This document shows positions 7,195 to 48,852 of a DNA stretch of 64,000 nt, piece after piece. The stretch is from Platerodrilus igneus (Eukaryota; Arthropoda; Insecta; Coleoptera; Lycidae): NCBI GenBank assembly GCA_036346225.1, contig JARFIW010000966.1:744001-808000 (forward strand). The letters are read 5' to 3'. The first letter of the stretch is position 1. Each line of letters starts with the position of its first letter. The notes below the pieces were generated by a model. It ran no database searches and was not told the origin of the DNA. It saw nothing but the letters and a program-made list of their open reading frames with translations. A program made the translations under genes and the position numbers.

Positions 7195-7660
7195 AACATC
7201 GTTAATGAGTTTTCCCATAAAAACGATTAGTGTTAATGAGTTTTCCAATTAAAAGACGATTAGTGCTAATGGTTTTTAATGAGAAAACCCATTAAAAACC
7301 GATTCGCGCTAATGGTTATAAATGAGAAAATCCATTACAAAGCTATTAGTGCTAATGGGTTTTTAATGAGAAAACCAACTAAAAAGCAATTAGTGCTAAT
7401 AGTTTTTTAATGAGAAGACCCATTAAAAAGCAATTAGTGCTATTGGGTTTTTAATGAGAAAACCAACTAAAAAGCAATTAGTGCTAATAGTTTTTAATGA
7501 GAAGACCCATTAAAAAGCAATTAGTGCTATTGGGTTATTAATGAGAAAATCAATTAAAAAGCAATCAGTGCTAATGGGTTTTAATTAGAAAACTCATTAA
7601 AAAGCAATTAGTGCTAATGGTTTTGTTAATGAGAAAACTCATTAAAAGGCAATTAGTGTA
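7195..7660. repeat. 44-bp minisatellite with internal inverted arms
   Basis: About eleven units spaced 43-45 bp apart share the core AAAAAGCAATTAGTGCTAAT. Each unit holds AAAACCCATTA and, further on, its complement TAATGGGTTTT, so single units can fold into hairpins. In the middle of the array, ACCAACTA-type and ACCCATTA-type units alternate, giving an 88-bp higher-order dimer. The first two units are shorter and diverged. Confidence 0.9.
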
Positions 7661-8011
7661 GGAAGGTCCAGGATGAACTTCTTGCTCTACTGCTGGTGTG
7701 CTTATGGGACGAAGCATTTTAATATCAGTTGGATTAGCACATTTGGTTAATGGTGTAACAACAGCGTGCTTCCACGGTGCAGGAAATACACCTTCCAACA
7801 AACATGTATTCACTATGCTGGTAATATAAGGAATGATGTACGGCAAAAACAATTTAATCACATCAATACTGATACCAACGCTCCCAATTGACTTAGAAGG
7901 TATTGATTTGATAATGTCACCGACTTTTGAGAAAAAAGTGAGACTGAAAATTGATTTTCGATTAGCGATTTGTTTGATAAAAATGTAGCATTTGAAGCAC
8001 ATCGATATCAT
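7661..8011 (-). pseudogene. Truncated non-LTR (LINE) reverse transcriptase fragment
   Basis: The minus frame gives GDIIKSIPSKSIGSVGIS, then LEGVFPAPWKHAVVTPLTK and LRPIS. This is the start of a LINE reverse transcriptase domain (S-x-G-x-D, then FP-x-x-W-K-x-A-x-V-x-P-L-x-K, then RPIS). The catalytic FADD box is absent because the copy stops where the minisatellite begins. The open frame continues by chance through the repeat array. The Asp expected after S-x-G-x is Ile here. Confidence 0.72.
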
Positions 8012-8279
8012 TACTGGCGTTATTACAACAAAATAATTCGTTAATTTTTCTCACATTTCTTAAAGAATAGCTGTGGCTCTTATCACATATCGGATGAAAT
8101 ATGCATATGGTTATAAAATTAAGATCCATAGAAACTAGCAATCATATTTAAAATATGCTCAATAGTAAAAATTCAAAGGTTAGTAACATTTATTATTAAT
8201 TTAAATAGTTCAATCTGCCATACTGTTAACAAGAAATCATTCTAAAAATATGTTTCAAAAGTCTGGAATCACATTTCTT

Positions 8280-12710: not shown

Positions 12711-13540
12711 GTCACGATTTCTTGGTTTCATTGACTTCACTTTAAGGTGTAAGTGCCGTTACCAGCGCTTTACATATTAAACAAATACTACATGGTAAAG
12801 TTTGCAAAAACTTATCGAATAGAAACCGCCTTTTTTTATCCGTTTTGTGCTTTGGCCAGATTTAAACTTCGTTTTAGTTTCCAGCATATTTAATAATTTG
12901 TGTTTGAAGAAATGGTGAAAAGGGGGGTTGAATTTTTAGTATTATTAGAATTTAAGACTTTTAGTTTCAAGGCAAGTAGTAGAACAATCAAAAATACAAT
13001 TTTTGATATACATTGGTCGTCACAATTTCTTGGTTTCATTGACGTTGCTTTAAGTTCTAAATGCCGTTACCAGCTATTTACATATTAAACAAATACTACT
13101 TGGTAAAGTTTGAAAAAACTTTTCGAATAGGAACCATAATTTCGTATCCGTCTTGTGCTTCGGTCAGATTTAAACTTCGTTTTGGTTTCCGGTATATTTA
13201 ATAGTTTGTGTTTGAAGAAATGGTGAAAAGGGGGTTGGATTTTTAGTATTACTAGAATTTAAGACTTTTAGTTTCAAGACAAATAACAGAACAATGAAAA
13301 ATAGAATTTTTGATATAAATTGATCGTCACAATTTCTTGGTTTCATTGACTTCACTTTAAGTTCTTAGTGCCGTTACCAGCTATTTACATATTAAACAAA
13401 TACTACTTGGTAAAGTTTGGAAAAACTAATCGAATAGGAACCACCTTTTTTATCAGTCTTTTAGTTTCCATGCAATTAGCAGAACACTGAAAAATAGAAT
13501 TTTTGATACAACTTGGCTTAATTCTTGAAATAGTTACGGA
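12711..13540. repeat. ~308-bp tandem satellite, about 2.7 copies
   Basis: The phrase TTTCTTGGTTTCATTGAC recurs at 12718, 13026 and 13333, giving periods of 308 and 307 bp. Each is followed by the same ~290 bp (including TTTACATATTAAACAAATAC). The third copy loses an internal ~100-bp block after about 13455 and ends near 13540. Apparent open frames inside are repeat-derived. Confidence 0.9.
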
Positions 13541-14609: not shown

Positions 14610-15050
14610 AACATGAGCATCGTTAGGTAAGATGGTACTTATCATTAATATTGTATGTACTGCGACCAACATACATCCGTAATGGTATATATACGGTGGT
14701 AATGTCTACAACAATGGGAAGGTTTCAACTTTTTTGTGCTTACAAATTTTCGATATTAATTATCAATTTAACACCCAAACTACTTAATGTCTACAGGGGG
14801 GTGGGGGGCGTTTCTATGTTTTTTTGTTGCATTTCTTTTTGGGTTGGAAAATTTTGTTAATTTAGGCAGTGTAGCGCTAATGATTTTCATATGCTTAATT
14901 ATTGTATTTAAGATAATGATTTAGAGCTGTTGTTTTTAGGGTCGTAATTTCTTGTTCTTTTTTTTGTAATTTTTGGGGGAACCTAAAAACGGCAGCGCCA
15001 TTTTAAGTATTGATTCTTTTAGATTACGTCCATTTTTGGCACTACTGTTC
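14610..15050. other. No recognisable feature
   Basis: Low-complexity T/G-rich sequence with a G-run near 14798-14808. No gene recognised. Confidence 0.4.
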
Positions 15051-15053
15051 TAC

Positions 15054-15055
15054 TA

Positions 15056-15137
<82 letters not shown>
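15054..15137. repeat. (TA)n microsatellite with short interruptions
   Basis: Alternating TA for about 84 bp, broken by ATACAT and ATTATGT. It directly abuts the first hammerhead repeat unit. Confidence 0.95.
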
Positions 15138-15138
<1 letters not shown>

Positions 15139-15140
<2 letters not shown>

Positions 15141-15228
15141 TTCATAGGGTTCTTTGAGACTATTTCACTCTGAGGAGGCTTAATAAAGCCGAAACCGTCG
15201 GTCAGTGGATGTTTCCTCCCTATGAAGT
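15139..15228 (+). ncRNA. Type I hammerhead ribozyme motif, copy 1
   Basis: Read 5' to 3', the parts are: outer stem I arm ACTTCATAGGG (15139-15149); inner stem I arm CACT (15166-15169); core CTGAGGA (15170-15176); stem II GGCT/AGCC with a six-base loop (15177-15190); GAAA (15191-15194); minimal stem III ACC/GGT closing on GTC; cleavage-site C at 15203 in GGTC; then AGTG (15204-15207), complementary to CACT; and CCCTATGAAGT (15218-15228), the perfect complement of the outer arm. The only core departure is G for U at position 7, which hammerheads tolerate. The short stem III is typical of Penelope and retrozyme hammerheads. Confidence 0.8.
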
Positions 15229-15657
15229 AATAAGCTAATGTTTTGTTAATGGCTATATAACTACCAGCCCGATTTGTATTCGTCAATAGACTCTATTATT
15301 TTCATAGAGTTTGTTTACAGATACATCTTATTTTATATATTGTTCTACACAATTTCTTATTGCGGACTGCAAATAACCTGTCTTTATTATTTGATTTGCC
15401 TTGGGGCATGAACCCGGGTGTCGCCGCGAGAAGGTTTGTTACGTTTGCAAATAAATTTTGCAGTAACATTCCGCAAATCTCAAATGGCCACACGTACTTG
15501 TATAGCCATCTATAGGATTTACTGTGTAGTTTCGGTTCAATTCAGTACTTCCACACTTTAGTAGTGTTGGTGTTTTATCACCTGATGGCGGTTTTATTTA
15601 CTTTTGCCATAGTACAGAGATTGTTTCGAAAAAAAAAACAGTATAATAGCTTCGATT

Positions 15658-15748
15658 ACTTCATAGGGTTCTTGGAGACTATTTCACTCTGAGGAGGCTT
15701 AATAAAGCCGAAACCGTCGGTCAGTGGATGTTTCCTCCCCTATGAAGT
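15658..15748 (+). ncRNA. Type I hammerhead ribozyme motif, copy 2
   Basis: Same architecture as copy 1, 519 bp downstream: outer arm at 15658-15668, CACT at 15685-15688, core CTGAGGA at 15689-15695, stem II GGCT/AGCC, GAAAC, cleavage site GGTC, AGTG at 15723-15726, complementary outer arm at 15738-15748. All paired positions of copy 1 are preserved. Confidence 0.8.
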
Positions 15749-15862
15749 AATAAGCTAATGTTTTGTTAATGGCTATATAACTACCAGCCCGATTTGTATT
15801 CGTCAATAGACTCTATTATTTTCATAGAGTTTGTTTACAGATACATCTTATTTTATATATTG

Positions 15863-15864
<2 letters not shown>

Positions 15865-15902
<38 letters not shown>
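15865..15902. repeat. (TA)n microsatellite
   Basis: Pure TA tract at the 3' end of the second hammerhead unit. Confidence 0.95.
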
Positions 15903-15905
<3 letters not shown>

Positions 15906-15906
<1 letters not shown>

Positions 15907-16620
15907 TAAAATCCGTCTTCTTTTGTTTTCCGTTGCCATGGCAACTATCTCTACGCACACTATGCAATTTCTAATTATTAATAATTGATTAATAATACAG
16001 TTCTTTTCTCTAGATACATTCATTTTCTAGATGGTTTGTAATCCAGTGATTTATGTATATTGAACTTTTTACAATATTGAAAATAGCTAACAAACTTTGA
16101 TGGTTCAGCTTTTAAATTGTACGCAACAGACATTTATGTCTTATTCGGTAAACGTCCTGTCATTACATAACCAATCTTTAATTGTTAAAACATATTCAAA
16201 CTGAAATTGATTTACAAATTTTACGGGAGTATCACTTAACTCCTTAAAATTTTAAAAGCGTGCAGTATACCAAGCAATTTTGATATTTGTTTTTACATTC
16301 AAATGGTTCTGAAAACGCTAACTCCAAATTAAATTTCATATACGTGCAACCATAACAATTAAAATACGTATACAATGCAAACTTATAACTAGCTTAGCCT
16401 GGTCTATGGCCGGTATATGTTGTTGAATGCAATGCAGTTTCAAAAGCTTTATAAATTTATAAACGTGGAATAGTTGTTGTTAATTTATAAACCAAAAATA
16501 CCTGAAAGAAAATACTCAAACAAAACCAAATATACCCCCATTCTAGCAAAGTCGTTTCGAAGCCCTATTTAAAATTTTATAAGCCCACCCCCTTCTTGAC
16601 AGTATAATATATATATAAAC
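15906..16620. other. No recognisable feature
   Basis: AT-rich non-coding sequence between the hammerhead repeat and the Penelope-like cluster. Confidence 0.4.
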
Positions 16621-16624
16621 AATA

Positions 16625-19325
16625 TTTTAATTTCTTGACCATCTGTATTAGATATAACGTTGTAATTTCTTGGACGTTGGTCAATGTATACCTATAGTTA
16701 TTTCAAAAAGTAGTTAGAATAACTATAACAATTTGTAATTGCGTTTATTATTTTTATTTTTAAGACGCGTTTCGGTCATCAGGACCATTATCAATTATGT
16801 TCTACAAAACATTACCTATAGAATATGAAAAATATTTTTAATAACTACATACCTAAAACTGAATTGTAGATTGTGTATCTAAGCTAAAGTAAAACATTTA
16901 AACATTTGTCACGAATATAAAATTTGCTAAAAATTGTCACTTAATAAAAATAAAATGATGTTTTACATTTAAAAATACAAGAACGAGAACACTTAAAGTA
17001 TACAAATGTAATAACATTAATTATTTAGTATAAACTGTTAAATAATATAAATTGTAGTGTGTGGTGATAAGTAAACTTGTTTAATAGTGGTGGTATATAT
17101 ATATGAAATATGTGCAATAGGATATTTATAACAAAGTGCACTTAGACTATTAAATTTTGGTAAAAATGTGTGAAATTGTCTTGATCGTTTTTGAATTTAT
17201 TGCTTGTGAGTTTCTTTGATTTGTATAGTTTTTAAAATCCTCTTTAATATCTTTCATTTCAGTACCTAAAATTTCTACATTATTGAAATCAAATTTGTGT
17301 AAATGTTCTAAGGCATGGGTTGCTAGAGCGGTGCATTTTTGTTGTTAGTTTTTATTGAATATTTATGTTCGTATATTCGTTTATGGAGGTATTGTTTGGA
17401 ATTTCCTATATACACGCCGGGACAATCGCTGCAATTTATTTTGTATATGGTGTGTGTTTTGTATTTTGCTCTATTTCTGGTTTTAATTTTGTAAAAGGTT
17501 TTTGTAAAATTGTTTGGTTTGTGTACAACTTGAATATTATGACTCTGTAAACATTTTTTAGTTTTCAGATAGTCCCGGGTGTAGTCGATACTAATCCTGT
17601 TGTCTATTACGTTTGATTTTTTATTATCATAGTTGTTAAATATATTGTGTATTTTTGTTTTTATAACTGGCTCGAAGAAGCTTTTGGATAGTCGTTATTC
17701 TTTAAAATATTTTTAACTTTTTTAAGATTTTTTGGCTTATGTTTATTATGTGAAAAATGCATTGCTCGGTCGACAAGGTTGTTAATCATATTTTTCTTAT
17801 ACATCATAGGGGTGTTAGATTTGTAATTAAGATATCTACCACTCCAGGTTGTTTTGTTGAACCAGTTGGTAGTGGTTTCTCCTTTATCATTGTAAGTAAT
17901 TAGTAAATCAAGGAAGGATATGGTGTTGTTAACTTCTTTCTCTATTGTGAATTGTAAACGGGGGTGGTAGGAATTAAATTTGTTTAGCGTTTCGTCGATT
18001 TTGTTATCTGGAAGGCACATTATACAGTCATCAACATACCTCTTAAAAAATACGGGTTTGTAGCTAAGCTGTTTTATAATTTCTTCTTCTAGATCCTCCA
18101 GTACTAGGTTAGCTATGGTAGAAGATATTGGAGAGCCCATTGCTATGCCAAAATTTGACTGTATATTTTGTTCTCGAACTTAAAATAAGTAGCATTTAAA
18201 CACATTTTGGTAGCCTGTAAGAATTCATTAAAGGTAAATTAGTGAAATGTGCTATTAAAGGCCATTTTTTGTGATTGTTTTAGTGCTAGGTCAATAGGTA
18301 TATTAGTAAAAGTGATTTAGCATCTAATGAAATTATTACATGGTTTTGGAATATTTTGCTTTATAATAAATTTATGGAAGCTCCAACTATCTTTGACAAA
18401 ATATTCGTTTTGTCCAGTTATATTTTTTAAAACCTCTACTAAAAATTTTGATAGTTTATAAGTTGGTGAATTTATATTGCTAACTATGGGTCTTAGTGGA
18501 ACGTTCGGTTTATGGACTTTTGGTAAGCCATACAAATAAGGAGCGTGCCCGTTATGGCAAATTAATTGGTTTTTTATCAGTTGATTAATATATCCTTTTT
18601 TATTCCATGAATTGATTAGAGAATTTAAGGCATTTTGTATTTGTAGTGTTGGATCGATTTTTTAACAATGTAGGTCGTTTTATCCATTAACATTTCATTC
18701 ATTTTATTTAGATATTCATTTTTATACATTATTACGGTAGTCTTACATTTGTCAGCTTGTAGAACGTATAAATCCTTATTCTTTTTCAGAAAATTTTTTG
18801 TTAATTTTATGTGTTTATTGAAAATGTTGTTATCTTTTTTAGGAGTGTTTGTATTTTTATATTTATGGTTAGTAAGAATATTACAAATTTTATTTCGATT
18901 TCAATTTTTCGTTAATTGGTTTTGTTTTTATAGCACTTTCAATATTGGCTATAACCTGTTCATATTTTATGCTTTTTAATTTCAAAGAAAATTTGTTGCC
19001 TAAACTTAATAAATAATTTACTTGCGGAGGAATTATAGTTTTAGTGAGGTTTACAAGCCATTTTGTATTGTTTATTTTGTTTAGATTTTTGTGTATATTT
19101 TGTTGCTTTATACATAAGTGGTTGATTTTTTTTATATGTCTTTGTTTAATTTTTTGAAAAACTTCGTTATATCTATCGTTTTGAACCTTGAAAAAATTTT
19201 GGTATACCTCCTTGTTTTGCTGCCGAATTATATTTGATTTAGTTTGTATTAATTTAAAATTAATTTTGTGTAAGTTTGTGTAACATTGTGCTATGCAAAT
19301 ATTGATGCATTGCAAGTAAAAAATA
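16625..19325 (-). mobile_element. Penelope-like retroelement, inverted copy A (5'-truncated)
   Basis: Read on the minus strand, an N-terminal Lys-rich segment (19320-18890) is followed by [19 protein letters not shown] (18535-18480), the Penelope reverse transcriptase signature. Then comes a core with FGIAMGSPISSTIANLVLED and FFKRYVDDCIM (catalytic YVDD), and a C-terminal GIY-YIG endonuclease segment around 17520-17200. Frameshifts and stops interrupt the frame. The 3' end lies at ~16625 and carries AGAAATTAAAATATTGTTT, the same bases that begin the 5' end of copy B. It lacks ~180 bp of the N-terminal coding present in copy B. Penelope-like elements copy themselves by target-primed reverse transcription. 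Confidence 0.88.
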
Positions 19326-19331
19326 TATATA

Positions 19332-20205
19332 TAATTTTTTACAAAATTAAAACCAGAAATAGAGCAAAATACAAAACACACACCATATACAAAATAAATT
19401 GCAGCGATTGTCCTGGCGTGTATATAGGAAATTCCAAACAATACCTCCATAAACGAATATACGAACATAAATATTCAATAAAACTAACAACAAAAATGCA
19501 CCGCTCTAGCAACCCATGCCTTAGAACATTTACACAAATTTGATTTCAATAATGTAGAAATTTTAGGTACTGAAATGAAAGATATTAAAAGAGGATTTTA
19601 GAAACTATACAAATCCAAAGAAACTCACAAGCAATAAATTCAAAAACGATCAAGACAATTTCACACATTTTACCAAAATTTAATAGCCTAAGTGCACTTT
19701 GTTATAAATATCCTATTGCACATATTTCATATATATACCACCACTATTAAACAAGTTTACTTATCACCACACACTACAATTTATATTATTTAACAGTTTA
19801 TACTAAATAATTAATGTTATTACATTCGTAAACTTTAAGTGTTCTCGTTCTTGTATTTTTAAATGTAAAACATCATTTTATTTTTATTAAGTGACAATTT
19901 TAGCAAATTTTATATTCGTGACAAATGTTTAAATGTTTTACTTTAGCTTAGATACACAATCTACAATTCAGTTTTAGGTATGTAGTTATTAAAATATTTT
20001 CATATTCTATAGGTAATGTTTTGTAGAACATAATTGATAATGGTCCTGATGACCGAAACGCGTCTTAAAAATAAAAATAATAAACGCAATTACAAATTGT
20101 TATAGTTATTCTACCTACTTTTTGAAATAACTATAGGTATACATTGACCAACGTCCAAGAAATTACAACGTTATATCTAATACAGATGGTCAAGAAATTA
20201 AAATA
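19332..20205 (+). mobile_element. Penelope-like 3' fragment (copy C, pLTR-like)
   Basis: This contains only the end of the element: GIY-YIG coding (INCSDCPGVYIGNSKQYLHK, about 19400-19460) with several frameshifts, then the 3' untranslated part, nearly identical to 22326-23170. It joins directly to copy B in the same direction. A C-B pair sharing the same 3' block corresponds to the 'pseudo-LTR' arrangement typical of Penelope elements. Confidence 0.85.
20044..20064 (+). ncRNA. Degenerate hammerhead core in a Penelope-like element
   Basis: CTGATGA (20046-20052) is followed after only CC by GAAAC and GCGTC, i.e. the two hammerhead core boxes and a GTC cleavage-like triplet with stem II collapsed. 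The same string occurs in copy B at 23043 and, inverted, in copy A at 16764-16782. Penelope elements are known to carry hammerheads in their pLTRs. This version lacks a usable stem II and is probably inactive. Confidence 0.45.
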
Positions 20206-23166
20206 TTGTTTAATTACTTTTAAATGGATTATCTACTGAGGAATATTACCTAATGCTAATGAAACAGGTGATAAAGTGTATTATTAGTTTTATTGTGATA
20301 TTTTTATTAACGACTTAATATTTAACTATCCTAATCAATGTTAGAATGTCATTATTTAGAGAATACATTTCACTAACCAATAAACTTGCCAGGGAAAAAA
20401 ACAAAAGGATATTTCTATTAAGGTGTAAAGATCTAAATATTACCCCTACATTTTTAAGAATAAAACCAAAAACAAAAATCTTTGATAAGAAATATAAATA
20501 TCAGTACCTAAGGTATCTCAATATTTTTTACTTGCAATGCATCAATATTTGCATAGCACAATGTTACACAAACTTACACAAAATTAATTTTATATTAATA
20601 CAAACTAAATCAAATATAATTCGGCAGCAAAAGAAGGAGGTATGCCAAAATTTTTTCAAGGTACAAAACGATAGATATAACGAAGTTTTTCAAAAAATTA
20701 AACAAAGACATAAAAAAAATCAACCACTGATGTATAAAGCAACAAAATATACAAAAAAATCTAAACAAAATAAACAACACAAAATGGCTTGTAAACCTCA
20801 CTAAAACTATAATTTCTCCACAAGTAAATTATTTATTAAGTTTAGGCAACAAATTTTCTTTGAAATTAAAAGCATAAAATATGAACAGGTTATAGCCAAT
20901 ATTGAAAGTGCTATAAAACAAAACCAATTAACGAAAAATTGAAATCCGAAATAAAATTTGTAATATTCCTACTAACCATAAATATAAAATACAAACACCC
21001 TTAAAAAGATAACAACATTTTCAATAAACACATATAATTAACAAAAATTTTCTGAAAAGAATAAGGATTTATACGTTCTACAAGCTGACAAATGTAAGAC
21101 TACCGTAATAATGTATAAAATGAATATCTAAATAAAATGAATGAAATGTTAATGGATAAAACGACCTACATTGTTAAAAAATCGATCCAACACTACAAAT
21201 ACAAAATGCCTTAAATTCTCTAATCAATTCATGGAATAAAAAGGTATATTAATCAACTGATAAAAACCAATTAATTTGCCATAACGGCACGCTCCTTATT
21301 TGTATGGTACAAAAGTCCATAAACCGAACGTTCCAGTAAGACCCATAGTTAGCAATATAAATTCACCAACTTATAAACTATCAAAATTTTTAGTAGAGGT
21401 TTTAAAAATATAACTGGACAAAACGAATATTTTGTCAAAGATAGTTGAGCTTCCATAAATTTATTATAAAGCAAAATATTCCAAAACCATGTAATAATTT
21501 CATTAGATGCTAAATCACTTTTACTAATATACCTATTGACCTAGCACTAAAACAATCACAAAAATGGCCTTTAATAGCACATTTTACTAATTTACCTTTA
21601 ATGAATTCTTACAGGCTACCAAAATGTGTTTAAATGCTACTTATTTTAAGTTCGAGAACAAAATATACAGTCAAATTTGGCATAGCAATGGGCTCTCCAA
21701 TATCTTCTACCATAGCTAACCTAGTACTGGAGGATCTAGAAGAAGAAATTATAAAACAGCTTAGCTACAAACCCGTATTTTTTAAGAGGTATGTTGATGA
21801 CTGTATAATGTGCCTTCCAGATAACAAAATCGACGAAACGCTAAACAAATTTAATTCCTACCACCCCCGTTTACAATTCACAATAGAGAAAGAAGTTAAC
21901 AACACCATATCCTTCCTTGATTTACTAATTACTTACAATGATAAAGGAGAAACCACTACCAACTGGTTCAACAAAACAACCTGGAGTGGTAGATATCTTA
22001 ATTACAAATCTAGCACCCCTATGATGTATAAGAAAAATATGATTAACAACCTTGTCGACCGAGCAATGCATTTTCACATAATAAACATAAGCCAAAAATC
22101 TTAAAAAGTTAAAAATATTTTAAAGAATAACGACTATCCAAAAGATTCTTCGAGCCAGTTATAAAAACAAAAATACACAATATATTTAACAACTATGATA
22201 ATAAAAATCAAACGTAATAGACAACAGGATTAGTATCGACTACACCCGGGACTATCTGAAAACTAAAAAATGTTTACAGAGTCATAATATTCAAGTTGTA
22301 CACAAACCAAACAATTTTACAAAACCTTTTTACAAAATTAAAACCAGAAATAGAGCAAAAATACAAAACACACACCATATACAAAATAAATTGCAGCGAT
22401 TGTCCCGGCGTGTATATAGGAAATTCCAAACAATACCTCCATAAACGAATATACGAACATAAATATTCAATAAAAACTAACAACAAAAAATGCACCGCTC
22501 TAGCAACCCATGCCTTAGAACATTTACACAAATTTGATTTCAATAATGTAGAAATTTTAGGTACTGAAATGAAAGATATTAAAGAGGATTTTAGAAACTA
22601 TACAAATCCAAAGAAACTCACAAGCAATAAATTCAAAAAACGATCAAGACAATTTCACACATTTTTACCAAAATTTAATAGCCTAAGTGCACTTTGTTAT
22701 AAATATCCTATTGCACATATTTCATATATATATACCACCACTATTAAACAAGTTTACTTATCACCACACACTACAATTTATATTATTTAACAGTTTATAC
22801 TAAATAATTAATGTTATTACATTTGTATACTTTAAGTGTTCTCGTTCTTGTATTTTAAATGTAAAACATCATTTTATTTTTATTAAGTGACAATTTTAGC
22901 AAATTTTATATTCGTGACAAATGTTTAAATGTTTTACTTTAGCTTAGATACACAATCTACAATTCAGTTTTAGGTATGTAGTTATTAAAATATTTTTCAT
23001 ATTCTATAGGTAATGTTTTGTAGAACATAATTGATAATGGTCCTGATGACCGAAACGCGTCTTAAAAATAAAAATAATAAACGCAATTACAAATTGTTAT
23101 AGTTATTCTACCTACTTTTGAAATAACTATAGGTATACATTGACCAACGTCCAAGAAATTACAACG

Positions 23167-23170
<4 letters not shown>
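20206..23170 (+). mobile_element. Penelope-like retroelement, copy B (near full length)
   Basis: Domains in order: N-terminal segment from the ATG at 20346; [18 protein letters not shown] at about 21310-21360; reverse transcriptase core 21634-22104 with GIAMGSPISSTIANLVLEDL and YVDD at 21790-21801; GIY-YIG endonuclease at about 22296-22700 with the preceding CSDC pair. At least four frameshifts or stops break the frame (for example after 20804, near 20870, near 21300 and after 22104), so it is inactive as written. The 3' end runs into (TA)n at 23168. Copy B is the most complete of the three and serves as reference for A and C. Confidence 0.88.

Positions 23171-23203
<33 letters not shown>
23168..23203. 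repeat. (TA)n microsatellite
   Basis: TA tract abutting the 3' end of Penelope-like copy B. Confidence 0.95.
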
Positions 23204-24489: not shown

Positions 24490-26260
24490 GATTTCAAAAT
24501 TCGCCTATTGACTGATGCCACTCTTCAAAACAGCTAGGACAGAGAAGTGGTTTTGTTACACAGCCTTTGCAGCGAAAACTTGTTTCTCTGCGTAGATTTT
24601 TTTCGTGCCCTGCCTACATCTCAAAAATAAGGATTTCTTATGCGAAGCAGCTCCAGGAATACCTGGAATTTTTTGGAGCCAATGGCCTGTTCCAACTGAC
24701 ATACTTGGCACACTGATGGATTGCGGTGGTACTGTACGCCTGCAGTGATTCCTTTTAGCTCACACTAAATCCTTTCCTTGTAAATTAAAAGAAATTTGGT
24801 TAAAGATTTAATTAGCACATCTCTAAACTGAATGAAGCGATAATTGGGAGAATCCCTTTTGTAATATTTTCGATAGAGGTAAAAGGCATTCTATGTGGTG
24901 ATATCAAGCAGATACAACTTAACTTTTTACACCACCTTATGGTTTTACGTGGTGTTACGTAAGACGAAATCATCTGATCACATCTATCAACTCCAGACAT
25001 ATGATTATAAACAGCTACCTATTCAGGCTTTATTTTTTCATTTTCAAATCTATTTTTTACTGAAATCATGAGGGATTATTCAGAGTTGTTACCATTAGAA
25101 CATCTCTCTGTCTCTCCATATAGAAACGTATACCTTTTTTTGTCGAACCCAATAATGTTCTTTGAACGAGAAACTTTAGACTACCTCTTTTATTTCATGT
25201 TAGGTTCCACTTTTATGAGTTTTATACTTTGGAAGCTTTTCAGATAGTTGTATGCTATTATAGTAGTTGTCCATATTATAGGTCGTGGCCTTTCATTAGG
25301 TAAGGTTCCATCAACCTAAGTACTAATGCTAAGGTTTTAGTGCTTTCTGAAGCGGGTGCAGATCCACTGTACATCTCCATATTTAGCAAATAGTCGTCAG
25401 ATGTAGTCAATTCAAAAAAATTTATTCGGTATAGGTTTTTTTAAATTTTTAATGTAAACTCGAAATGCAAGTCTACCACGATAATGCTGTTTTATTGGCA
25501 AGTAGGTTTCTTTATATTGTTTTGTAAACATATCTATATATGGTTGATGTTTTTTTTTTTACTTTTCGCATTTGACGGAGAACAGCAGAGAACTCGAAGT
25601 ATAGTTTCAAACCTCCTGGCTGATATGATATATGGAAATATCGGATTATAGTATAGTAAACCAGAATATAAAAAATATGGACGCATATTTGTTGTTGAAA
25701 TTTGACCTTGGAGTAGACACAACCCAAAAAAAGGCTTTCATTTCTTCGGTTGTTATAGAACATAAACTAGCAGATCTACTGTTCCTTGTTCTTGGTCTAT
25801 TTGTTCCACAGAAAGTTTGACCATATTTGTTTGAACACTCAACTATATATTCAAGTATAGAAGGCGTATATAAACATTCAAATACTTCTAATGGTGTGGC
25901 ATCAGGGCTAATACTTATTTTGAGTCTTGCACTGGTGTTGTCAAATGCAAAATCGGACACTGGTGTAGTTGTAGTTTTCAACGAATTTTCGGAATTGTAT
26001 AGCGATATATTTGAACTTTTAGGTAGTCCATCTTCATCCGACTAATTAGATTTTGAAGATATTACATTGGAATTACTGTCACCTGTTTCGGAACTACTAG
26101 ATTCGTCAGGTTCGTAATTTTTGTCAGACCCATATTCACCACCACTGTCATTGTATGGATCTTTTTCACCGTCGCTGTCGTCAGAAAAAACTTCCTCAAA
26201 AACTATACGTTACTGTCCCTGTTCCCGTCCGTAAGGGTAGTTTGAGTTGTAGTCACTCAT
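24490..26260 (-). pseudogene. piggyBac transposase, decayed near-full-length copy
   Basis: The minus-strand ATG at 26260 opens an acidic, Ser/Asp-rich N-terminus with a stop about 18 codons in. Next come LKISISPDATPLEVFECLYT and EEMKAFFWVV (the start of the DDE_Tnp_1_7 domain), then badly broken sequence. MSGVDRCDQMISSYVTPRK (about 25000-24945) follows, matching the piggyBac M-G-G-V-D-x-x-D-Q box. Near 24590-24490 is a Cys-rich end (FRCKGCVTKPLLCPSCFEEW), the zinc-binding C-terminal domain. piggyBac moves by cut-and-paste at TTAA. Exact element ends were not resolved. Nested in the hAT element. Confidence 0.8.
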
Positions 26261-26269
26261 CTGAAACCA

Positions 26270-27490
26270 ACGAAACCACATTATTTGTAAGAACACGAAA
26301 CCATTATCAGACAAAGAAATGTTGTTGATACAACAACGCTATATTACTAGAAAATAAATACTTACTTAGTCTAACAAAAAACACATTATTTTAGAGGAAA
26401 ACAGGCTAAACAAAAGTTTTGGCGCGAAGTTACAACCAATATGACACATCAGATAGACTGAATGAAATCAAATGGCACTGAAGACGCTGCTCAGCGTTCT
26501 GTTGTAATTGAGAAGGGTGCGGCTCTAGACCAATAGTAGAGAAGATTTAAATTGGTTACGCAGTTAAGGGATTGCACTGGGCAAATATTTTCCGAGCCGA
26601 ATGTGACAATTATAACCGAGTATAAATATTCTATATGCATAGTTGAACGCCGATCAACGTTCCACCAGTTTTAGAAAAAGTTATAGAAGACGCCGTATGC
26701 CGTTGTGTCACAAACTGATCGGCTTCAAAGACGCCGTAGAACGTCAATATCCTTCAACGTGTTAACATTACAAAAAGATCCGGTGCTGATTGTGAGTAAT
26801 ATATAAACCGCCAACGCCTGTCGGCTCGAAAGGTACAAACAACAACGCACAATGTTGTTGCGATCGGCGCGACGCAATGCAACTTTGCCTAAATGCTTAT
26901 AACCATTCACAGAAAAATGCGTAGATTGATTCGAGCAGTTTATATATGTCTATGTTCGCGTGTGTTAGAACTTATAAGGAATTTTAAATAAATTGGTAAA
27001 TATACAAATTTATTCTCTTTTCTACCTTAAGAAATGTAGTTGTAGCTAGTGTTGTTTATATGCGTATTTTTATAACTACTGGTAATATTATATTATTATT
27101 ATTATAAACTATTTAAAAATAAATGAATTAAAACGAGACAGAACATAAAAATTTAATTTTGTTGCACGTATTTTACATTTAGTATTATTAATTATTATAT
27201 TATTTTTAAATATCTTCAATTACTATTCAAGTTATTAATATAAATATAATTACTCTACTGTTACAAATATATTATACTTAAAAAAATATGGATAACATAT
27301 AAACTGTGTATCTCTTTTTTTTAAGGAAACCAGCATTGCCTCTTACTACCGTGGTCTAAAAATTTTTAATATTAATATAGTTCGGGAAATTAGCAAGACA
27401 AACAAAAGCGAGGAGTACGATTCAAATATTTAATTTGTTTTATATTATAAATAAAAATTATTATTATTTAAAAAAATAGATTCCATTTTC
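26270..27490. other. Non-coding spacer between divergent piggyBac and hAT genes
   Basis: AT-rich sequence separating the piggyBac start (minus) from the hAT start (plus). It is conserved in the second copy (30045-31290), which shows that the pair was duplicated as one block. A CGCCGATCAACG-type GC-richer patch lies near 26648-26780. Confidence 0.6.
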
Positions 27491-27496
27491 ACTGTA

Positions 27497-28815
27497 ATGG
27501 AGAAATGGTTAGCGCTAGGGATTGAAAAATCAAAGAGAAAACTGTCTGAAGATGATTCTACTGCAGCGAGCGCTTCTAGTTGTAATCCTGATTCTTACCA
27601 AGTATCCAAAAAACAAAATACTGAAACCGTAAGAAAATATATTGAAAATTATTTACAATACGGATTGTTTTGGAACGAGGATGAAAATAATCTCAAACCT
27701 CTGTGCGTTGTTTGCAACGTACAATTTTCGATTCACTCCATAAAACCATCTCTTCTGCAACGACATTTTCAAAACAAACATGCCAACTTGAAAGATAAAC
27801 CTGTGGAATTTTTCCAAAGAAAACGGACAGAAATGAAAAGTAATAAAGGCTCACTTCATTCTTTTACTACAATAAACAAAAAAGCTGTCGAAGTTTCATA
27901 TTTGGTCAGTTTGAGAATTGCTCAAAATTCAAAGTCACATACTATAGGAGACCTTAATATTATCTGCAGCTAAAGACATAGTGACATGTATGCTAGGACC
28001 TGCAGCAGCAACTAAGTTGAATGTTGTTTCCTTGCCAAATGACATTGTTTCGCGATGAATTAATGAAATGGCAGTTCAGTTGAAAGAAATACTGATCGAA
28101 AATATAAAGAAGAGCAAATATTTTGCTATACAATTTGATGAAAGTACAGACGTTACAAACTTTGCGCAGTTAATGGCGTTCATTCGATATGAAAAAAGCC
28201 AAACTATAGAAGAATTCTTATTTTGCGAAGCAGTTCCGCATCATACAACGGCAGATGAAATTTTCCAAAACAAATATTGAGCTTGTAATATGTAACTAAT
28301 AATAATATGGATTGGAAAAAATGTGGATTATGTGCTGAGTGCTGACGGAGCACGTGCAATAACTGGGTATCGTGGTGGTGTTTTTACAAAAATTAAAAAT
28401 GTTGCCCCAGATGCAAAATTCACGCATTGCAGCATACATCGTGAGGCACTAGTAACCAAAGCAATGCCAACAGAATTAAAAACTGTTTTAGATGAAACTG
28501 TGAAAATAGTTAATTTTATTAAATGTAGTGCTCTAAATTCACGGTTGTTTACAATTTTGTGCAATGAAATGGGCAGTAATCACAAAAAGCTCTTGTTACA
28601 CACTGAAGTGCGTTGGTTATCAAGGGGAAAAGTTTTAAAGTGACTCTCCGATTTACGAAACGTAGTTTAAATATTTCTGTCACATACTAACTTCGATCTC
28701 CGCGATTGTTTTAGTGACCAACTCTAGCTTTCACATTTTGTCTATTTAGCAGATATTTTTGAAACATTGAACATATTAAATTCTAATCTACATGGTTCCA
28801 ATCTTTCTGCTTTTA
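27497..28815 (+). pseudogene. hAT transposase (ZBED5/FAM200-like), copy 1, 3'-truncated
   Basis: From the ATG at 27497: a Lys/Ser-rich start, then a BED-type zinc finger (CVVCNVQFSIHSIKPSLLQR followed by HFQNKH), then the RNase-H-like catalytic region in several pieces. KYFAIQFDESTDVTNFAQLM carries the first catalytic Asp. SADGARAITGYRGGVFTKIK and HCSIHREALVTKAMP follow, then LHTEVRWLSRGKVLK, the hAT signature. Stops and frameshifts occur near 27970, 28056, 28279 and 28642. The copy ends near 28815 before the hATC dimerisation domain, where a mariner-like terminus (ACAGTGTGTCCCAAATTGG) begins. Confidence 0.85.
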
Positions 28816-29440
28816 CTGTACAGTGTGTCCCAAATTGGATGTATTAAATGGGTAACTTAGTTGTTATTAAAGATACAATAAAACTGTGTGCGCAGTCGTG
28901 TGCCAACTTTTTGAGATCAATTCAATGGTGAAATCACAAATGAGCGATCTTCTTTAGTTTTCGAGTTATAGCCAAAAATTGATATTTTTTACAATTCTAT
29001 TAATTCTTATAACTCGTTTGTTTGCAAAAATATCCAAAAATACTGTAGAAGTCTTTTATTCGGTTTTTTACGTAGAATACAGTGGCGTGCGCAAATATTT
29101 AATATTTATAATACTTTTGAGGTTATAATATAAACTTGCATTTTTTTAAATGGAAACCACAATTGGTTGTCGCTTTATTTAAAAGCTCTTTTGACAGCTT
29201 TTCAAAAATATATAGTTTAGTATAATTATTTTTTCAAATGGCCGATTTATTCCATGTTTTTGGTATAATAAAATAATTTATTGTATTGGTAATTTATAGT
29301 TGGCCGCGAAACAAAAGGTAAACACAAAACAAGAGTTTATTATTGTACCACACCACTCTAAACAACAAAGTTTGAAAGCTAGAAGAATACAATATCATAA
29401 CTACATATATTACAAAAATTAATATAGTTACATCTTAAAT
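28816..29440. other. Probable mariner-like non-coding insertion
   Basis: This segment separates the two duplicated blocks. It begins ACAGTGTGTCCCAAATTGG, resembling mariner-like ends seen elsewhere in the window (ACACTGTGTCCAATATAAGG at about 38799). No coding sequence was recognised in it. Confidence 0.35.
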
Positions 29441-29444
29441 TATA

Positions 29445-32400
29445 GTAAATCAGGATATGAAAATATCCACGCATATTTGCTGTTGAAATTTGACACAACC
29501 CAAAAAAGGCTTTCATTTCTTTGGTTGTTATAGAACATAAACTAGCAGACCTACTGTTCCTTGTTCTTGGTCTATTTGTTCCACAGAAAGTTTGACCATA
29601 TTTGTTTGAACACTCAACTATATATTCAAGTATAGAAGGCGTATATAAACATTCAAATACTTCTAATGGTGTGGCATCCGGGCTAGTACTTATTTTGAGT
29701 CTTGCACTGGTGTTGTCAAATGAAAAATCGGACACTGGTGTAGTTGTAGTTTTCAACGAATTTTCGGAATTGTACAGCGCAATATTTAAACTGTTAGGTA
29801 GTCCATCTTCATCCGACTAATTAGATTTTAAAGATATTACAGTGGAATTACTGTCACCTGTTTAGGAACTACTAGATTCGTCAGGTTCGTAACTTTTGTC
29901 AGACCCATATTCACCACCACTGTCATTGTATGGATCTTTTTCACCGTCGCTGTCGTCAGAAAAAACTTCCTCAAAAACTATACGTTACTGTCCCAGTTCC
30001 CGTTCATAAGGGTAGTTTGTGTTGTAGTCACTCATCTGAAACCAACGAAACCACATTATTTGTAAGAACACAAAACCATTATCCGACAAAGAAATGTTGT
30101 TGATACAACAGCGCTATATTACTAGAAAATAAATACTTACTTAGTCTAACAAAAAACACATTATTTTAGAGGAAAACAGGCTAAACAAAATTTTGGCGCG
30201 AAGTTACAACCAATATGACACATCAGATAGACTGAATGAAATCAAATGGCACTGAAGACGCTGCTCAGCGTTCTGTTGTAATTGGAAAGGGTGCGGCTCT
30301 AGACCAATAGTAGAGGGGATTTAAATTGGTTGCGCAGTTAAGGGATTGCACTGGGTAAATATTTTCCGAGCCGAATGTGACAGTTATAACCGAGTATAAA
30401 TATTCTATATGCATGGTTGAACGCCGATCAACGTTCCACCAGTTTTAGAAAAATGATCACAAAATGATCGGCTTCAAAGACGCCGTAGAACGTCAATATC
30501 CTTCAACGTCTTAACATTACAAAAAGATCCGGTGCTGATTGTGAGTGTATATAAACCGCCAACGCTTGTCGGCTCAAAAGTACAAACAACAACGCACAAT
30601 GTTGTTGCGATCGGCGCGACGCAACGCAACTTTGCCTAAATGCTTATAACCATTCACAGAAAAATGCGTAGTGCACTTTCTCCCACTCCCCAGTCTAGTT
30701 AATCCACCCGAACTAGTACATTGATTCGAGCAGTTTATATATGTCTATGTTTGCGTGTGTTAGAACTTATAAGGAATTTTAAATAAATTGGTAAATATAC
30801 AAATTTATTCTCTTTTCTACCTTAAAAAATGTAGTTGTAGCTAGTGTTGTTTATATGCGTATCTTTATAACTACTGGTAATATTATAATATTATTATTAT
30901 TATAAACTATTTAAAAATAAATGAATTAAAACAAGACACAACATAAAAATTTAATTTTGTTACACGTATTTTACATTTAGTATTATTAATTATTATATTA
31001 TTTTTAAATATCTTCAATTACTATTCAAGTTATTAATATAAATATAATTACTCTACTGTTACAAATATATTATACTTATAAAAATATGGATAACATATAA
31101 ACTGTGTATCTCTTTTTTAAGGAAACCAGCATTGCCTCTTACTACCGTGGTCTAATAATCTTTAATCTTAATTTAGTTCGGGAAATCAGCAAGACAGACA
31201 AAGGTGAGGAGTACGATTCAAATATTAAATTTGTTTTTATATCATAAATATAAATTATTATTATTTAATAAAATAGATTCCAATTTCACTGTAATGAAGA
31301 AATGGTTAGCGCTAGGGATTGAAAAATCAAACAGAAAACTGTCTGAAGATGATTCTACTGCAGCGAGCGCTTCTAGTTCTAATTCTAATTCTTACGAAGT
31401 ATCCAAAAAACGAAATACTGCAACTGTAAGAAAATATAATGAAAATTATTTACAATACGGATTCTTTTAGAACGAGTATGCAAATAATAATAAACCTCTG
31501 TGCGTTGTTTGCAACGAACAATTTTCGATTCACTCAATGAAACCATCTCTTCTGCAACGACATTTTCTAAACAAACATGCCAACTTGAAAGATAAACCGC
31601 TAGAATTTTTCCTAAGAAAACGGACAGAAATGAAAAGTAATAAACGCTCACTTCATTCTTTTACTACAGTAGACGAAAAAGTTGTCGAAGTTTCATAGTT
31701 TGAGAATTGCTCATTCCGCATAGTGTTGAAGAAACCTTAATATTACCTGCATCTAAAGACATAGTGACATGTATGCTAGGACCTGCAGCAGCAACTAAGT
31801 TGAATGTTGTTTCTTTGTCAAATGACACTGTTTCGCGACAAATTAATGAAATGGCGGTTCAGTTGAAAGAAATACTGATCGAAAATATAAAGAAGAGTAA
31901 ATATTTTGCTATACAATTCGATGAAACTTTACAAACGTTACAAACTTTGCGCAGTTAATGGCGTTCATTCGATACGAAAAAAGCCAAACTATAGAAGAAT
32001 TCTTATTTTGTGAAGCAGTTCCACATCATACAACGGCAGATAAAATTTTCAAAAAAAATTATTGAGCTTGTAACATGTAACTAATAATAATATAGATTGG
32101 AAAAAATGTGGATTATGTGCTGACGGAGCACGTGCAATAACTGGGTATCGTGGTGATGTTTTTACAAAAATTAAAAATGTTGCCCCAGATGCAAAATTCA
32201 CTCATTGCAGCATACATCGTGAAGCACTAGCAACCAAAGCAATGCCAACAGAATTAAAAACTGTTTTAGATGAAACTGTAAAAATAGTTAATTTTATAAA
32301 ATGTCGTGCTCTAAATTCACGGTTGTTTACAATTATGTGCAATGAAATGGGCAGCAATCACAAAAAGCTTTTGCTACACACTGAAGTGCGTTGGATATTA

Positions 32401-32570
32401 AGGTGAAAAGTTTTAACGCGACTCTTCGATTTACGTAACGTAGTTCAAATATTTTTGTGTCAGATCTCCGCGTTTGTTTTAGTTTCAAACTCTGCCTTTC
32501 ACGTTTAGCAGATATTTTTGGAACATTAAACAAATTGAATTCTAATCTACAAGGTTCCAATGTATCTGTT
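29445..32570. repeat. Duplicated segment, copy 2
   Basis: Same order and orientation as 25640-28815. The two copies differ by scattered substitutions, small indels and a ~49-bp insert at about 30671-30720. Confidence 0.85.
29455..30034 (-). pseudogene. piggyBac transposase, copy 2, 3'-truncated
   Basis: The minus-strand ATG at 30034 aligns with the one at 26260. The N-terminal acidic part and LKISTSPDATPLEVFECLYT to EEMKAFFGL (as TKEMKAFFGL) are retained. Coding stops about where the duplication starts, so the catalytic and Cys-rich parts are absent. This copy keeps Gly in AFFGL, where copy 1 has Trp. Confidence 0.8.
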
Positions 32571-38830: not shown

Positions 38831-38979
38831 CTCGGAAATCGTAATAAATGAAACAACACTGACTCAAAATTAATAACCTCCTTAATACCGACGCTTACAA
38901 AAAGTAAACAAAATAAGTACTACTCTCTAATGCATAAAAATTGTTCGAACAAATGTCAATTATTTTCTAAACATAAATA

Positions 38980-39569: not shown

Positions 39570-39925
39570 AACTTTCTATGTTTGAGTCCTTGGTAAATTT
39601 TTAATTTCTAAGGGTGCAATTTCTGTTTTCTTAGATAAAATGAACAATAGATTAGGTGTTTCAAAGCCTACTATTTTTAATATAAATTTAATTTAAATTC
39701 AAAAATGGTCGTATTTACAAAATTAAAGAAAAACTTCGAAGATTAATGTTATTGAGGCTGAGTATGTGTTATTCATGTTTTGAAAATAATGTACATTTAT
39801 ATGAAGAATTTATAATTGAAATATGTGTCTAGTAGTACTTTTTTTCTGTATACTTTTATAAGCACCGGTATTGAATAGGTTATTAATTTTGTGTCACGTG
39901 TTTCATATATATTGTGAAATAAGAT
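39570..39925. other. No recognisable feature
   Basis: AT-rich non-coding sequence. Confidence 0.4.
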
Positions 39926-40322
39926 GTATCTGTAAATAAACTCTTATGAAAATAACAAAAGCGTATTTACCTATACAAATGGAGCTGATAGTTGTATGGC
40001 TATTAACAAAACAATAACTTTATTGCTTCACAAGAGGAAGGAACATCCAATGGCCGGTTTCGGCCTCTTTGGTCCTCATCAGAGTAGAGTAGTTTCTAAC
40101 AACCCAATATTGGGTTGTGCTTGTGAAGCTATAAAGTTATTGTTTGGTTAGTGGCTATATAATTATCACCTCTATTTGCATAGGTAAATAGGCTTTTATT
40201 ATTTTCATAATAGTTTATTTATAGATACGTCTTATTTCGCTTTTGTTGTATTATTTTGCTTTTGCTGTACACAAATTCAGATTGCAGATTGCAAATAACT
40301 TATTTTTTATATGTATTTGTTA

Positions 40323-40367: not shown

Positions 40368-40372
<5 letters not shown>

Positions 40373-44833: not shown

Positions 44834-44858
44834 ATATATATATATATATATATATATA
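44834..44858. repeat. (TA)n microsatellite
   Basis: TA tract at the outer end of the minus-oriented hammerhead unit. Confidence 0.95.
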
Positions 44859-45455
44859 AAATAAGATGTATCTGTAAACAAACTCTTATGAAAATAATAA
44901 AAACTTATTGACGAATACAAATCGGGCTAGTAGTTATATAGCCATTAACAAAACATTAGCTTTATTACTTTACAGGGGAGGAAACATTAACTGACCGACG
45001 GTTTCAGCTTTGTTAAGTTTCATCAGAGCAGATTAGTTTCCAACCCTGTGAAATAGTCGAAGCTATTATACTGATATAATTTCAAAACAATCTCTGTACT
45101 ATAGCAAAAATAAATAAAACCGCCATCAGGTGATAAAACACCAACACCACTAAGTGTGGAAGTACAGAATTGAATCGAAATTACATAGTAGATTCTATAG
45201 ATGGCTATAAAAGTACATCTGGCTTTTGAGATTTGCGGAATGTTACAGCAAAATTTACAAACGTACCAACCTTCTCGTGGCGACACCCGGGTTCATGCCC
45301 CAAAGGCAATTCAAATAATAAAAGACAAGTTGTTTGCAGTCCGCAATAAGAAATTGTGTAGAACATTATATAAAATAAGATGTATCTGTAAACAAACTCT
45401 TATAAAAATAATAAAAGCTGATTGACGAATACAAATCGGACTAGTAGTTATATAC
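44859..45455 (-). mobile_element. Hammerhead repeat unit, more than one period, minus strand
   Basis: On the minus strand the sequence starts with the post-ribozyme segment (TATAACTACTAGTCCGATTT), passes through the ~330-bp body and reaches a hammerhead core at 45026-45020. It then repeats the post-ribozyme segment before (TA)n. This exceeds one 519-bp unit, so it derives from a circular or tandem template. Confidence 0.7.
44989..45029 (-). ncRNA. Hammerhead ribozyme motif (minus strand)
   Basis: Minus-strand order: GCT, core CTGATGA (canonical U7), stem II AACT/AGCT weakened by one mismatch, GAAA, ACC/GGT stem III around GTC, cleavage-site C, then AGT complementary (with one wobble pair) to GCT. 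Outer arms TTTCACAGGG/CCCTGTAAAG pair nearly perfectly. Confidence 0.68.
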
Positions 45456-45806
45456 TTCCACACTTAGTAGTGTTGGTGTTTTATCACCTGATGGCGGTTT
45501 TATTTGCTTTTGCCATAGTACAGAAATTGTTTAGAAATTATATCAGTATAATAGCTTCGATTACTTCATAGAATTATAAACTAATTCGATCTGATGAGGC
45601 TTAGCAAAGCCAAAACCGTCGGTTAGTGGATGTTTCCTCCTCTGTGAAGTAATAAAGCTATTGTTTTGTTAATGGCTCTATAACTACTAGCCCGATTTGT
45701 ATTCGTTAATAAGTTTTTATTATTTTCATAAGAGTTTGTTTACAGATACATCTTATTTTATGTATTGTTCTACAGAATTTCTTATTGCGGACTGTAAATA
45801 ACTTGT

Positions 45807-45850
<44 letters not shown>
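45448..45850 (+). mobile_element. Hammerhead repeat unit, plus strand, ending in (TA)n
   Basis: This begins at ACTTCCACACTTAGTAGTGT, the body segment. It runs through a ribozyme core and the post-ribozyme segment to GACTGTAAATAACTTGTC and (TA)n at 45810-45850. Head-to-head with the minus unit at 44859-45455. Confidence 0.7.
45587..45628 (+). ncRNA. Hammerhead ribozyme motif, sense to the cuticular gene
   Basis: Core CTGATGA (45591-45597), stem II GGCT/AGCC with a six-base loop, then CAAAAC where CGAAAC is expected (G12 lost), stem III ACC/GGT, cleavage position T (GGTT). Stem I is weakened. Loss of G12 should abolish cleavage. Confidence 0.55.
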
Positions 45851-47999: not shown

Positions 48000-48298
48000 G
48001 TTATAACAAACTCTATGAAAATAATCAAGAACCCTATTGACGAATACAAATCGGGCTGGTAGTTATATAGCCATTTAAACAAAACATTGCTTTTTGCAAG
48101 AAAACAAACCGCCTACGGTAATATCAACCTCTAAGCGTGGAAGTAAAAATTGAATCAAAACTACATAGTAAATCCTATAGATGGCTATACAAGTCGTTGA
48201 CATTTGAGATTTGCGGAATATGCAAGCAAAATTTAAATTGCAAACGTAAAAAACCTTCTCGCGGCACACCCGGGTTCAGCCCAAGGCAAAGCAAATAA
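48000..48298 (-). mobile_element. Hammerhead repeat body, minus arm of a foldback
   Basis: Matches the unit body in inverse orientation, with an internal deletion that removes the ribozyme core. It meets the plus copy at 48299, so about 190 bp on either side are complementary. Confidence 0.65.
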
Positions 48299-48810
48299 CC
48301 TGTCTTTAATTATTTGATTTGCTTAGGGCGCTAACCCGGTGTCGCCGCGAGAAGGTTTGTTACGTTTGCAAAAATAGCTGTAACATTCCGCAAACCTCAA
48401 ATGGCCACACGTACTGTATAGCCATCTATAGGATTTACTATGTAGTTTCGATTCAATTGTGTACTTCCACGCTTAGTAGTGTTGATATTTATCACCTGAT
48501 GGCGGTTTTATTTACTTTGCCATAGTACAGAGATTGTTTCGAAATTATACCAGTATAATAGCTTCGATTACTTCATAGGGTTCTTGGAGACTATTTCACT
48601 CTGAGGAGGCTTAATAAAGCCGAAACCGTCAGTCAGTGGATGTTTCCTCCCATGAAGTAATAAGCTAATGTTTTGTTAATGGCTATATAACTACCAGCCC
48701 GATTTGTATTCGTCAATAGGCTCTATTATTTTCATAGAGTTTGTTTACAAATACATCTTATTTTATATATTGTTCTACACAATTTCTTATTGCGGATTGC
48801 AAATAACCTG

Positions 48811-48852
<42 letters not shown>
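48299..48852 (+). mobile_element. Hammerhead repeat unit, plus strand, ending in (TA)n
   Basis: Full order: body from TTTGATTTGCTTAGGGCGCT, ribozyme at 48597, post-ribozyme segment, then (TA)n at 48815-48852. It is about 550 bp long and close in sequence to the 15.1-15.9 kb dimer. Confidence 0.75.
48597..48638 (+). ncRNA. Hammerhead ribozyme motif, sense to the cuticular gene
   Basis: CACT, core CTGAGGA (48601-48607), stem II GGCT/AGCC, GAAA, then ACC-GTC-AGT: one G-to-A change opens a C-A mismatch in the 3-bp stem III. The cleavage triplet GTC and AGTG (48635-48638) are intact. Outer arms ACTTCATAGG/CATGAAGT are slightly shortened. Confidence 0.68.

Follow-up and report, generated by a model that had tools for sequence, protein, structure and literature searches.

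Retrozyme copies in a beetle genome end like a neighbouring Penelope-like element, suggesting a source for their copying machinery

Locus A carries a partial tandem repeat with two hammerhead motifs

The stretch of DNA analysed here (the window, 64,000 nucleotides from the lycid beetle Platerodrilus igneus) contains at 15136..15867, on the plus strand, a retrozyme insertion, locus A, that comprises 1.41 units of 519 nt and runs from unit position 518 to position 210 of the next unit. The reference unit for all comparisons was taken from locus A itself, and in a Smith-Waterman alignment to the tripled unit the locus is 99.7% identical over 731 aligned positions. The first-pass annotation had described a tandem dimer at 15138..15905; a partial tandem with two hammerheads is indeed present, but at 1.41 units it is not a full dimer, and a (TA)n array follows it as far as 15902. 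Arrays of this kind, as delimited by TRF, lie at the 5' end (15054..15137) and at the 3' end (15866..15902) of the insertion. The word TGTTCTA stands in the left flank (15046..15052, plus strand) and again at the right junction (15861-15867); at that junction TGTTCTA is also the sequence of the unit, and the two strands of the window together contain the word 25 times, so that the pair is ambiguous between a target-site duplication, a priming microhomology and chance.

Every named part of the two type I hammerhead motifs claimed in the annotation, 519 bp apart, was found in the sequence. Copy 1 occupies 15139..15228 and copy 2 occupies 15658..15748, both on the plus strand, and their cores start at 15170 and 15689, which gives the spacing of 519 bp. 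The outer stem I, ACTTCATAGGG/CCCTATGAAGT, is formed by 15139-15149/15218-15228 in copy 1 and by 15658-15668/15738-15748 in copy 2. Both copies have the inner stem I CACT/AGTG, a stem II of GGCT/AGCC with the loop TAATAA, then GAA-A, and a 3-bp stem III, ACC/GGT, with the loop GTC; the GTC triplets end at 15203 and 15722, the positions after which cleavage is predicted.

A descriptor scan of the whole window on both strands matched the locus A pair only, and on Markov controls (40 × 64 kb, one strand) the descriptor gave 0 matches. The comparison with Rfam proposed in the annotation returned nothing at gathering level and a sub-threshold match to RF02275 (Hammerhead_HH9, gathering score 52) at each site, at 15154-15226 in copy 1 (24.4 bits, E 0.0017) and at 15671-15744 in copy 2 (24.9 bits, E 0.00015, a value from a narrower search; the wider one, which gave the value for copy 1, covered both sites and listed copy 1 alone). 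As no match reaches the gathering level, the case is carried by the descriptor scan together with the evidence from the family. When the hammerhead copies are folded in isolation, the minimum-energy structures retain outer stem I and lack the catalytic core fold, and in the circular fold of the 519-nt RNA the core is likewise paired otherwise than as a catalytic core. The missing gathering-level match and the absence of the core from the minimum-energy folds are what one would expect if a hammerhead-like motif had arisen in a repeat by chance, an explanation to which we give next to no credence in view of the empty Markov controls and the E values of the two sub-threshold matches. Stem III plus its loop, ACCGTCGGT, is self-complementary at 8 of 9 positions, so that two hammerheads could pair as a dimer, a possibility that excerpts of PMC3088659 note for repeat-type hammerheads.

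Cuts at the two predicted sites would excise a 519-nt RNA (15204..15722, plus strand), circular after ligation. Its circular fold has a predicted energy of -153.9 kcal/mol, as against -109.6 +/- 6.4 for 100 shuffles (z -6.9), with 67% of the nucleotides paired. The longest ATG-initiated reading frames on the circle are 35 aa in sense and 55 aa in antisense orientation, in agreement with the earlier description of this DNA as non-coding, and the G+C content of the unit is 36.8%, that of the window 32%. The type I hammerheads, the partial tandem, the lack of coding capacity, the low G+C content and the highly paired predicted circle bear out the label "retrozyme-like element" and, by the features examined, support the identification of a metazoan retrozyme, with self-cleavage predicted from the sequence.

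Three further loci are inverted pairs

A blastn search of the window with the unit revealed three more loci, beyond the one in the annotation: B (39905-40319), C (44852-45812) and D (48005-48815). All three, that is, three of the four loci, are head-to-head inverted pairs in which the 5' ends meet centrally and the 3' ends face outward. Locus B consists of a minus arm at 39905..40108 (unit 7 to 203; 81.9% of 193 aligned positions, 76.9% by blastn with gaps) and a plus arm at 40124..40319 (unit 86 to 261; 82.8% of 174, 70.6% by blastn with gaps), the latter followed by a (TA)n array at 40326-40372. In locus C the minus arm (44852..45454) holds 1.17 units, from unit 117 to 203, at 90.9% of 595 aligned positions, and the plus arm (45453..45812) runs from unit 409 to 250 at 91.0% of 356; (TA)n arrays lie at the outer ends of both, at 44834-44858 and 45810-45850. 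The minus arm of locus D (48005..48298) covers unit 250-421, continues from 92 to about 178-187 and lacks the hammerhead stretch, and its plus arm (48291..48815) holds 1.03 units, from unit 232 to 248, at 95.4% of 524 aligned positions, with a (TA)n array following at 48816-48852; all these arrays are again those reported by TRF.

Within each pair the arms differ in sequence (87.0% identity over 115 aligned positions in B, 90.4% over 313 in C, 91.2% over 193 in D) and are thus not assembly duplicates. At their junctions the arms overlap by 2 bp in C and by 8 bp in D. The two arms of D, 90.9% (minus) and 95.4% (plus) identical to locus A, differ in age or source, and D may therefore represent two events. 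A palindrome, CAACCCAATATTGGGTTG, is found at 40100-40117, where the arms of locus B join; palindromes have been described at the inverted junctions of Penelope-like elements in excerpts of PMC3846280. Two other repeats border these loci. An inverted repeat (38844-38980 / 39769-39910, 76% alike) reaches the left edge of locus B with its second copy, and a direct repeat of 322 bp (48833-49133 / 49216-49536), each copy of which contains a tRNA-Ala(GGC)-like match, begins within the right TA array of locus D.

The hammerheads of loci B to D are damaged: the plus arm of D has a mismatch in stem III, the plus arm of C lacks G12, and the minus arm of D has no ribozyme. Core position 7, a position at which the hammerhead tolerates change, is G in the copies of A and D and T in those of B and C. 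Five of the six aligned hammerhead copies (A1, A2, D+, C+ and C-) were used to count stem changes. In 3 pairs both sides have changed and compensate each other, in 4 a one-sided change preserves the pairing, 6 pairs are broken, and there is 1 gap. Copy B was left out because the sequence of its 5' strand is that of the opposite arm in reverse complement, and the perfect covariation of outer stem I in that copy was rejected as an artefact of this derivation. Mixed changes of this kind are as expected of decaying copies, and selection on the stems is neither supported nor refuted by them. The annotation had regarded a protein-coding element with non-compensated stem changes as evidence against its reading; no coding element was found, and the stem changes are mixed.

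The copies end in two zones next to a predicted stem-loop

With unit position 1 set at 15138, cleavage is predicted after position 66. The 3' ends fall at unit position 210 in A, 203 in B-, 203 in C-, 261 in B+, 250 in C+, 248 in D+ and, after the internal deletion, about 178-187 in D-, and they form two zones some 45 nt apart, at about 203-210 and about 248-261. B, C and D each have one arm that reaches the first zone, or in the case of D- (178-187) falls short of it, and another that terminates in the second. The statistics draw on four loci in one window, where ends within one locus are not independent. All seven ends, with D- set at 178 (its second match), span 83 of 519 nt, and 57 of 400000 random draws were as tight; the ends without D- span 58 nt (46 of 400000); a single end per locus (n = 4) gives a span of 45 nt (1086 of 400000); and with the first match of D- (unit 421) taken as its end, the clustering is weaker (7774 of 200000). 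The 5' ends, for which 285267 of 400000 random draws were as tight, are scattered. None of the seven pieces starts at the predicted cleavage site (unit 67) and five of them read across it, so that those five were copied from a circular or an uncleaved template and not from a linear monomer released by cleavage. The pieces range from 0.3 to 1.4 units, those of A, C- and D+ being longer than a unit.

A stem-loop of 51 nt is predicted immediately upstream of the 3' stops, at 15795..15845 on the plus strand (15275-15325 in copy 1), in a region (15774-15868) whose fold has a z of -4.1. Although the arms of the hairpin have changed, it is predicted in 8 of 9 copies, the exception being D-, and its apical loop reads UAUUUUC, but UAUUUUU in C-a. 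On the strength of these folds we regard it as a candidate RNA element for recognition by a protein of a Penelope-like element.

The same observations bear on whether the repeat could be an ordinary hammerhead-bearing satellite, its tandems and inverted pairs having come about by DNA recombination, duplication and inversion without any retrotransposition. Units of 463-505 bp that carry a hammerhead are described for cave-cricket pDo500 in excerpts of PMC2808323, and a 1.4-unit tandem could be produced by unequal exchange. However, the four loci are in different registers, with scattered 5' and clustered 3' ends, and the arms are merely 87.0-91.2% alike, which argues against a recent inversion or an artefact of assembly. 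We therefore consider a satellite origin unlikely.

A Penelope-like element lies beside locus A

A larger element, at 16616-23170, lies 0.75 kb from locus A. We designate it a Penelope-like element (PLE) on the basis of reverse transcriptase (RT) and GIY-YIG letters read by eye and of its structure. Its reading frame is broken into pieces of at most 194 aa. An RT fragment at 17661-18179 has a match to PF00078 (E 3.9e-5) that falls short of Pfam's curated cut-off, and it has 40 homologues; by pattern it matched two stretches in a collection of viral contigs, neither confirmed as a relative. The GIY-YIG-like letters, VYIG/R/EH, are recognised by eye only: for this domain there was no Pfam match and no PDB sequence match, and a single-sequence model was unusable (pLDDT 40).

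The element is composed of two arms that meet head to head and are 99.2% alike over 2645 aligned positions. The minus arm (16616..19326) carries a tail and terminates in an 11-bp TA tract, at a position equivalent to 20212. The plus arm (19336..23170) has no tail; it repeats a 2997-bp unit as a partial tandem, terminates at a position equivalent to 20173-20179 and is followed by a (TA)n array (23168-23203, TRF). There are accordingly two 3' stops, 33-39 nt apart, each of which runs into TA repeats, long in the plus arm and of 11 bp in the minus arm. All three pseudo-LTR copies contain CTGATGACCGAAACGCGTC (16764-16782 on the minus strand, 20046-20064 and 23043-23061 on the plus strand), a sequence with the halves of a hammerhead core; we rejected it as the hammerhead of the PLE because it lacks a stem II, and it possibly represents a decayed one. 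No hammerhead was matched at 23000-23165 of the PLE; a minimal hammerhead in the pseudo-LTR is frequent in such elements and is not required.

The retrozyme and this PLE share no similarity beyond chance, their longest common word being 11 nt as compared with 9-14 in 30 shuffles, and any common recognition would therefore be structural. What they share is the manner in which their copies end, which suggests that the larger element supplies the copying machinery of the smaller one.

Clustered 3' ends combined with variable 5' ends are general in target-primed reverse transcription, so that another non-LTR enzyme, of the LINE or RTE type, that makes or prefers (TA)n tails might mobilise the retrozyme instead. 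A/T-rich microsatellites near the 3' ends of some LINEs, reported in excerpts of PMC8969392, would agree with such an enzyme. Against it stands the PLE, with its matching pattern, at a distance of 0.75 kb from locus A. We also know of no LINE insertions in the form of head-to-head pairs with two alternating 3' stops, and we judge a LINE or RTE source improbable. An open reading frame at 7571-8050 looks RT-like by eye, yet has no Pfam match at E 0.001.

Altogether, 46 repeat pairs of at least 100 bp were found in the window, 17 of them outside the retrozyme and PLE families, including the two that border loci B and D. A direct repeat of 3.2 kb (25646-28813 / 29435-32572) is 90.7% alike between its copies, the first of which contains an open reading frame (25646-26041) with a weak match, below cut-off, to PF13843 (DDE_Tnp_1_7), a family that we take to be piggyBac-type. 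Tandem repeats are present at 12711-13444 (307-bp unit, 2.4 copies) and at 7248-7658 (44/87-bp, about 9 copies of the 44-bp unit).

(TA)n arrays mark the ends of both families

TRF reports seven TA arrays in the window, and each of them adjoins an end of the retrozyme or of the PLE, that of locus B lying within 7 bp, a distribution that also speaks against the satellite origin considered above. Seven of nine uninterrupted TA tracts of at least 20 bp are within 12 bp of an end, the other two being parts of the left array of locus A; when ten ends were placed at random (20000 draws), 0.08 tracts were touched on average and never more than 3. With the threshold lowered to 10 bp, all 13 uninterrupted tracts belong to an end array, sit where the two PLE arms join or lie within the PLE. 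B- and D- lack a long TA array, and the minus end of the PLE has the 11-bp tract only.

The arrays need not have been the target. They may have been made by the insertion itself, through repeated copying of TA at the junction and later slippage, a possibility to which we assign a chance a little short of even. The location of all 13 tracts of at least 10 bp counts in its favour, as pre-existing targets would leave some empty ones, whereas the array at the 5' end of locus A is what a target, or a duplicated target, would show. An origin of the (TA)n arrays as by-products does not conflict with the PLE as the source of the copying enzyme.

Since most outer ends touch TA-rich DNA, and since the arm junctions overlap by the few base pairs given above for C and D, easily broken (TA)n runs might alternatively have been patched with retrozyme cDNA or RNA by end joining, with no dedicated enzyme. 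Patches of this kind should have random ends, yet the 3' ends are clustered (the 57 of 400000 draws), and the alternation between two sites matches the PLE; we regard capture of this kind as very unlikely.

A proposed route of copying and insertion

Two 3' zones, inverted arms, partial tandems and A/T-rich contacts are all features of PLEs, and we take their joint presence in the retrozyme copies to mean that a PLE enzyme copies the retrozyme. Our main reading, to which we give a probability of roughly 70%, is that the window holds four insertions of a non-autonomous retrozyme family with a unit of about 519 nt that is copied and inserted by the RT/endonuclease of a PLE. It is also fairly likely that these loci amount to direct genomic evidence of PLE enzymes copying and inserting metazoan retrozymes, with a start at an internal stem-loop of the circular RNA, a tail signature and the use of both ends of a TA-rich break, whereby a small ribozyme circle would become partial tandems and inverted pairs.

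Retrozyme transcripts would cleave themselves at the type I hammerheads, and a host ligase, as published metazoan retrozymes lead us to presume, would close the 519-nt monomers. A Penelope-like RT/endonuclease might then open A/T-rich DNA, probably at runs of TA dinucleotides, and reverse transcription would be primed inside the RNA, just past the stem-loop, at either of two sites some 45 nt apart. The enzyme would copy 0.3 to 1.4 units, either around the circular RNA or on a multimer that had not been cleaved, and both DNA ends would often be extended, so that two cDNAs join head to head.

The proposal bears on the question of who moves animal retrozymes. If it is true, the PLE-type pattern of tail, inverted arms and A/T-rich target would answer this question for one family, and the alternation of retrozyme 3' ends between two internal sites would make it testable in any sequenced animal. 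It would also provide a concrete RNA substrate for an in vitro assay of PLE enzymes and would bear on the spread of an abundant class of RNA circles.

Comparison with known systems

The metazoan non-LTR retrozymes of coral, mussel and axolotl, as they appear in excerpts of PMC7229834 and PMC7761336, resemble the element described here in having a type I hammerhead with a short stem III in a partial tandem, in being non-coding and low in G+C, in forming a highly paired predicted circle, and in being present in several copies. At 519 nt the unit is longer than the circles (about 170-400 nt) and the repeats (150-450 bp) reported in these excerpts, although circles of 150 to more than 1000 nt, a range that includes 519 nt, are also mentioned (PMC7229834). 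Unlike the direct tandems described there, three of the four loci here are head-to-head inverted pairs, with ends that touch (TA)n arrays and two alternating 3' stops; among the literature matches listed, none describes retrozymes with such a tail or with inverted arms. In viral and genome contig collections, the hammerhead region had no match by exact pattern.

The likeness to pDo500 of Dolichopoda cave crickets (excerpts of PMC2808323 and PMC2837043) is one of description: its 463-505 bp are near 519, and its hammerhead is proposed to act also as a dimer, whereas it is reported as a tandem satellite and the copies here are dispersed inserts of 0.3-1.4 units. Plant LTR retrozymes (PMC4918200) are likewise non-autonomous, with a hammerhead in repeated ends and a circular RNA intermediate, but they differ in their type III ribozyme, their LTR, PBS and PPT and their probable mobilisation by Gypsy-type elements (excerpts of PMC7761336).

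PLEs have been proposed as carriers of retrozymes, without a supporting motif in the excerpts of PMC7229834 and PMC7761336, and the idea is repeated in those of PMC8969392. The retrozyme differs from PLEs in encoding no protein and in having no sequence in common with the PLE of the window beyond chance. Its insertions share several features with Penelope/Poseidon elements as described in excerpts of PMC11167929 and PMC3846280, namely inverted head-to-head arms, partial tandems, an optional tail on one arm and, probably, A/T-rich targets. An inverted pLTR and an optional tail of 30-40 bp on one arm are characteristic of PLEs (PMC3846280), and the excerpted literature describes the two-site tail as unique to them and attributes it to reverse transcription that begins internally, a start that PLEs are stated to use (PMC11167929, PMC3846280) and that the retrozyme probably shares.
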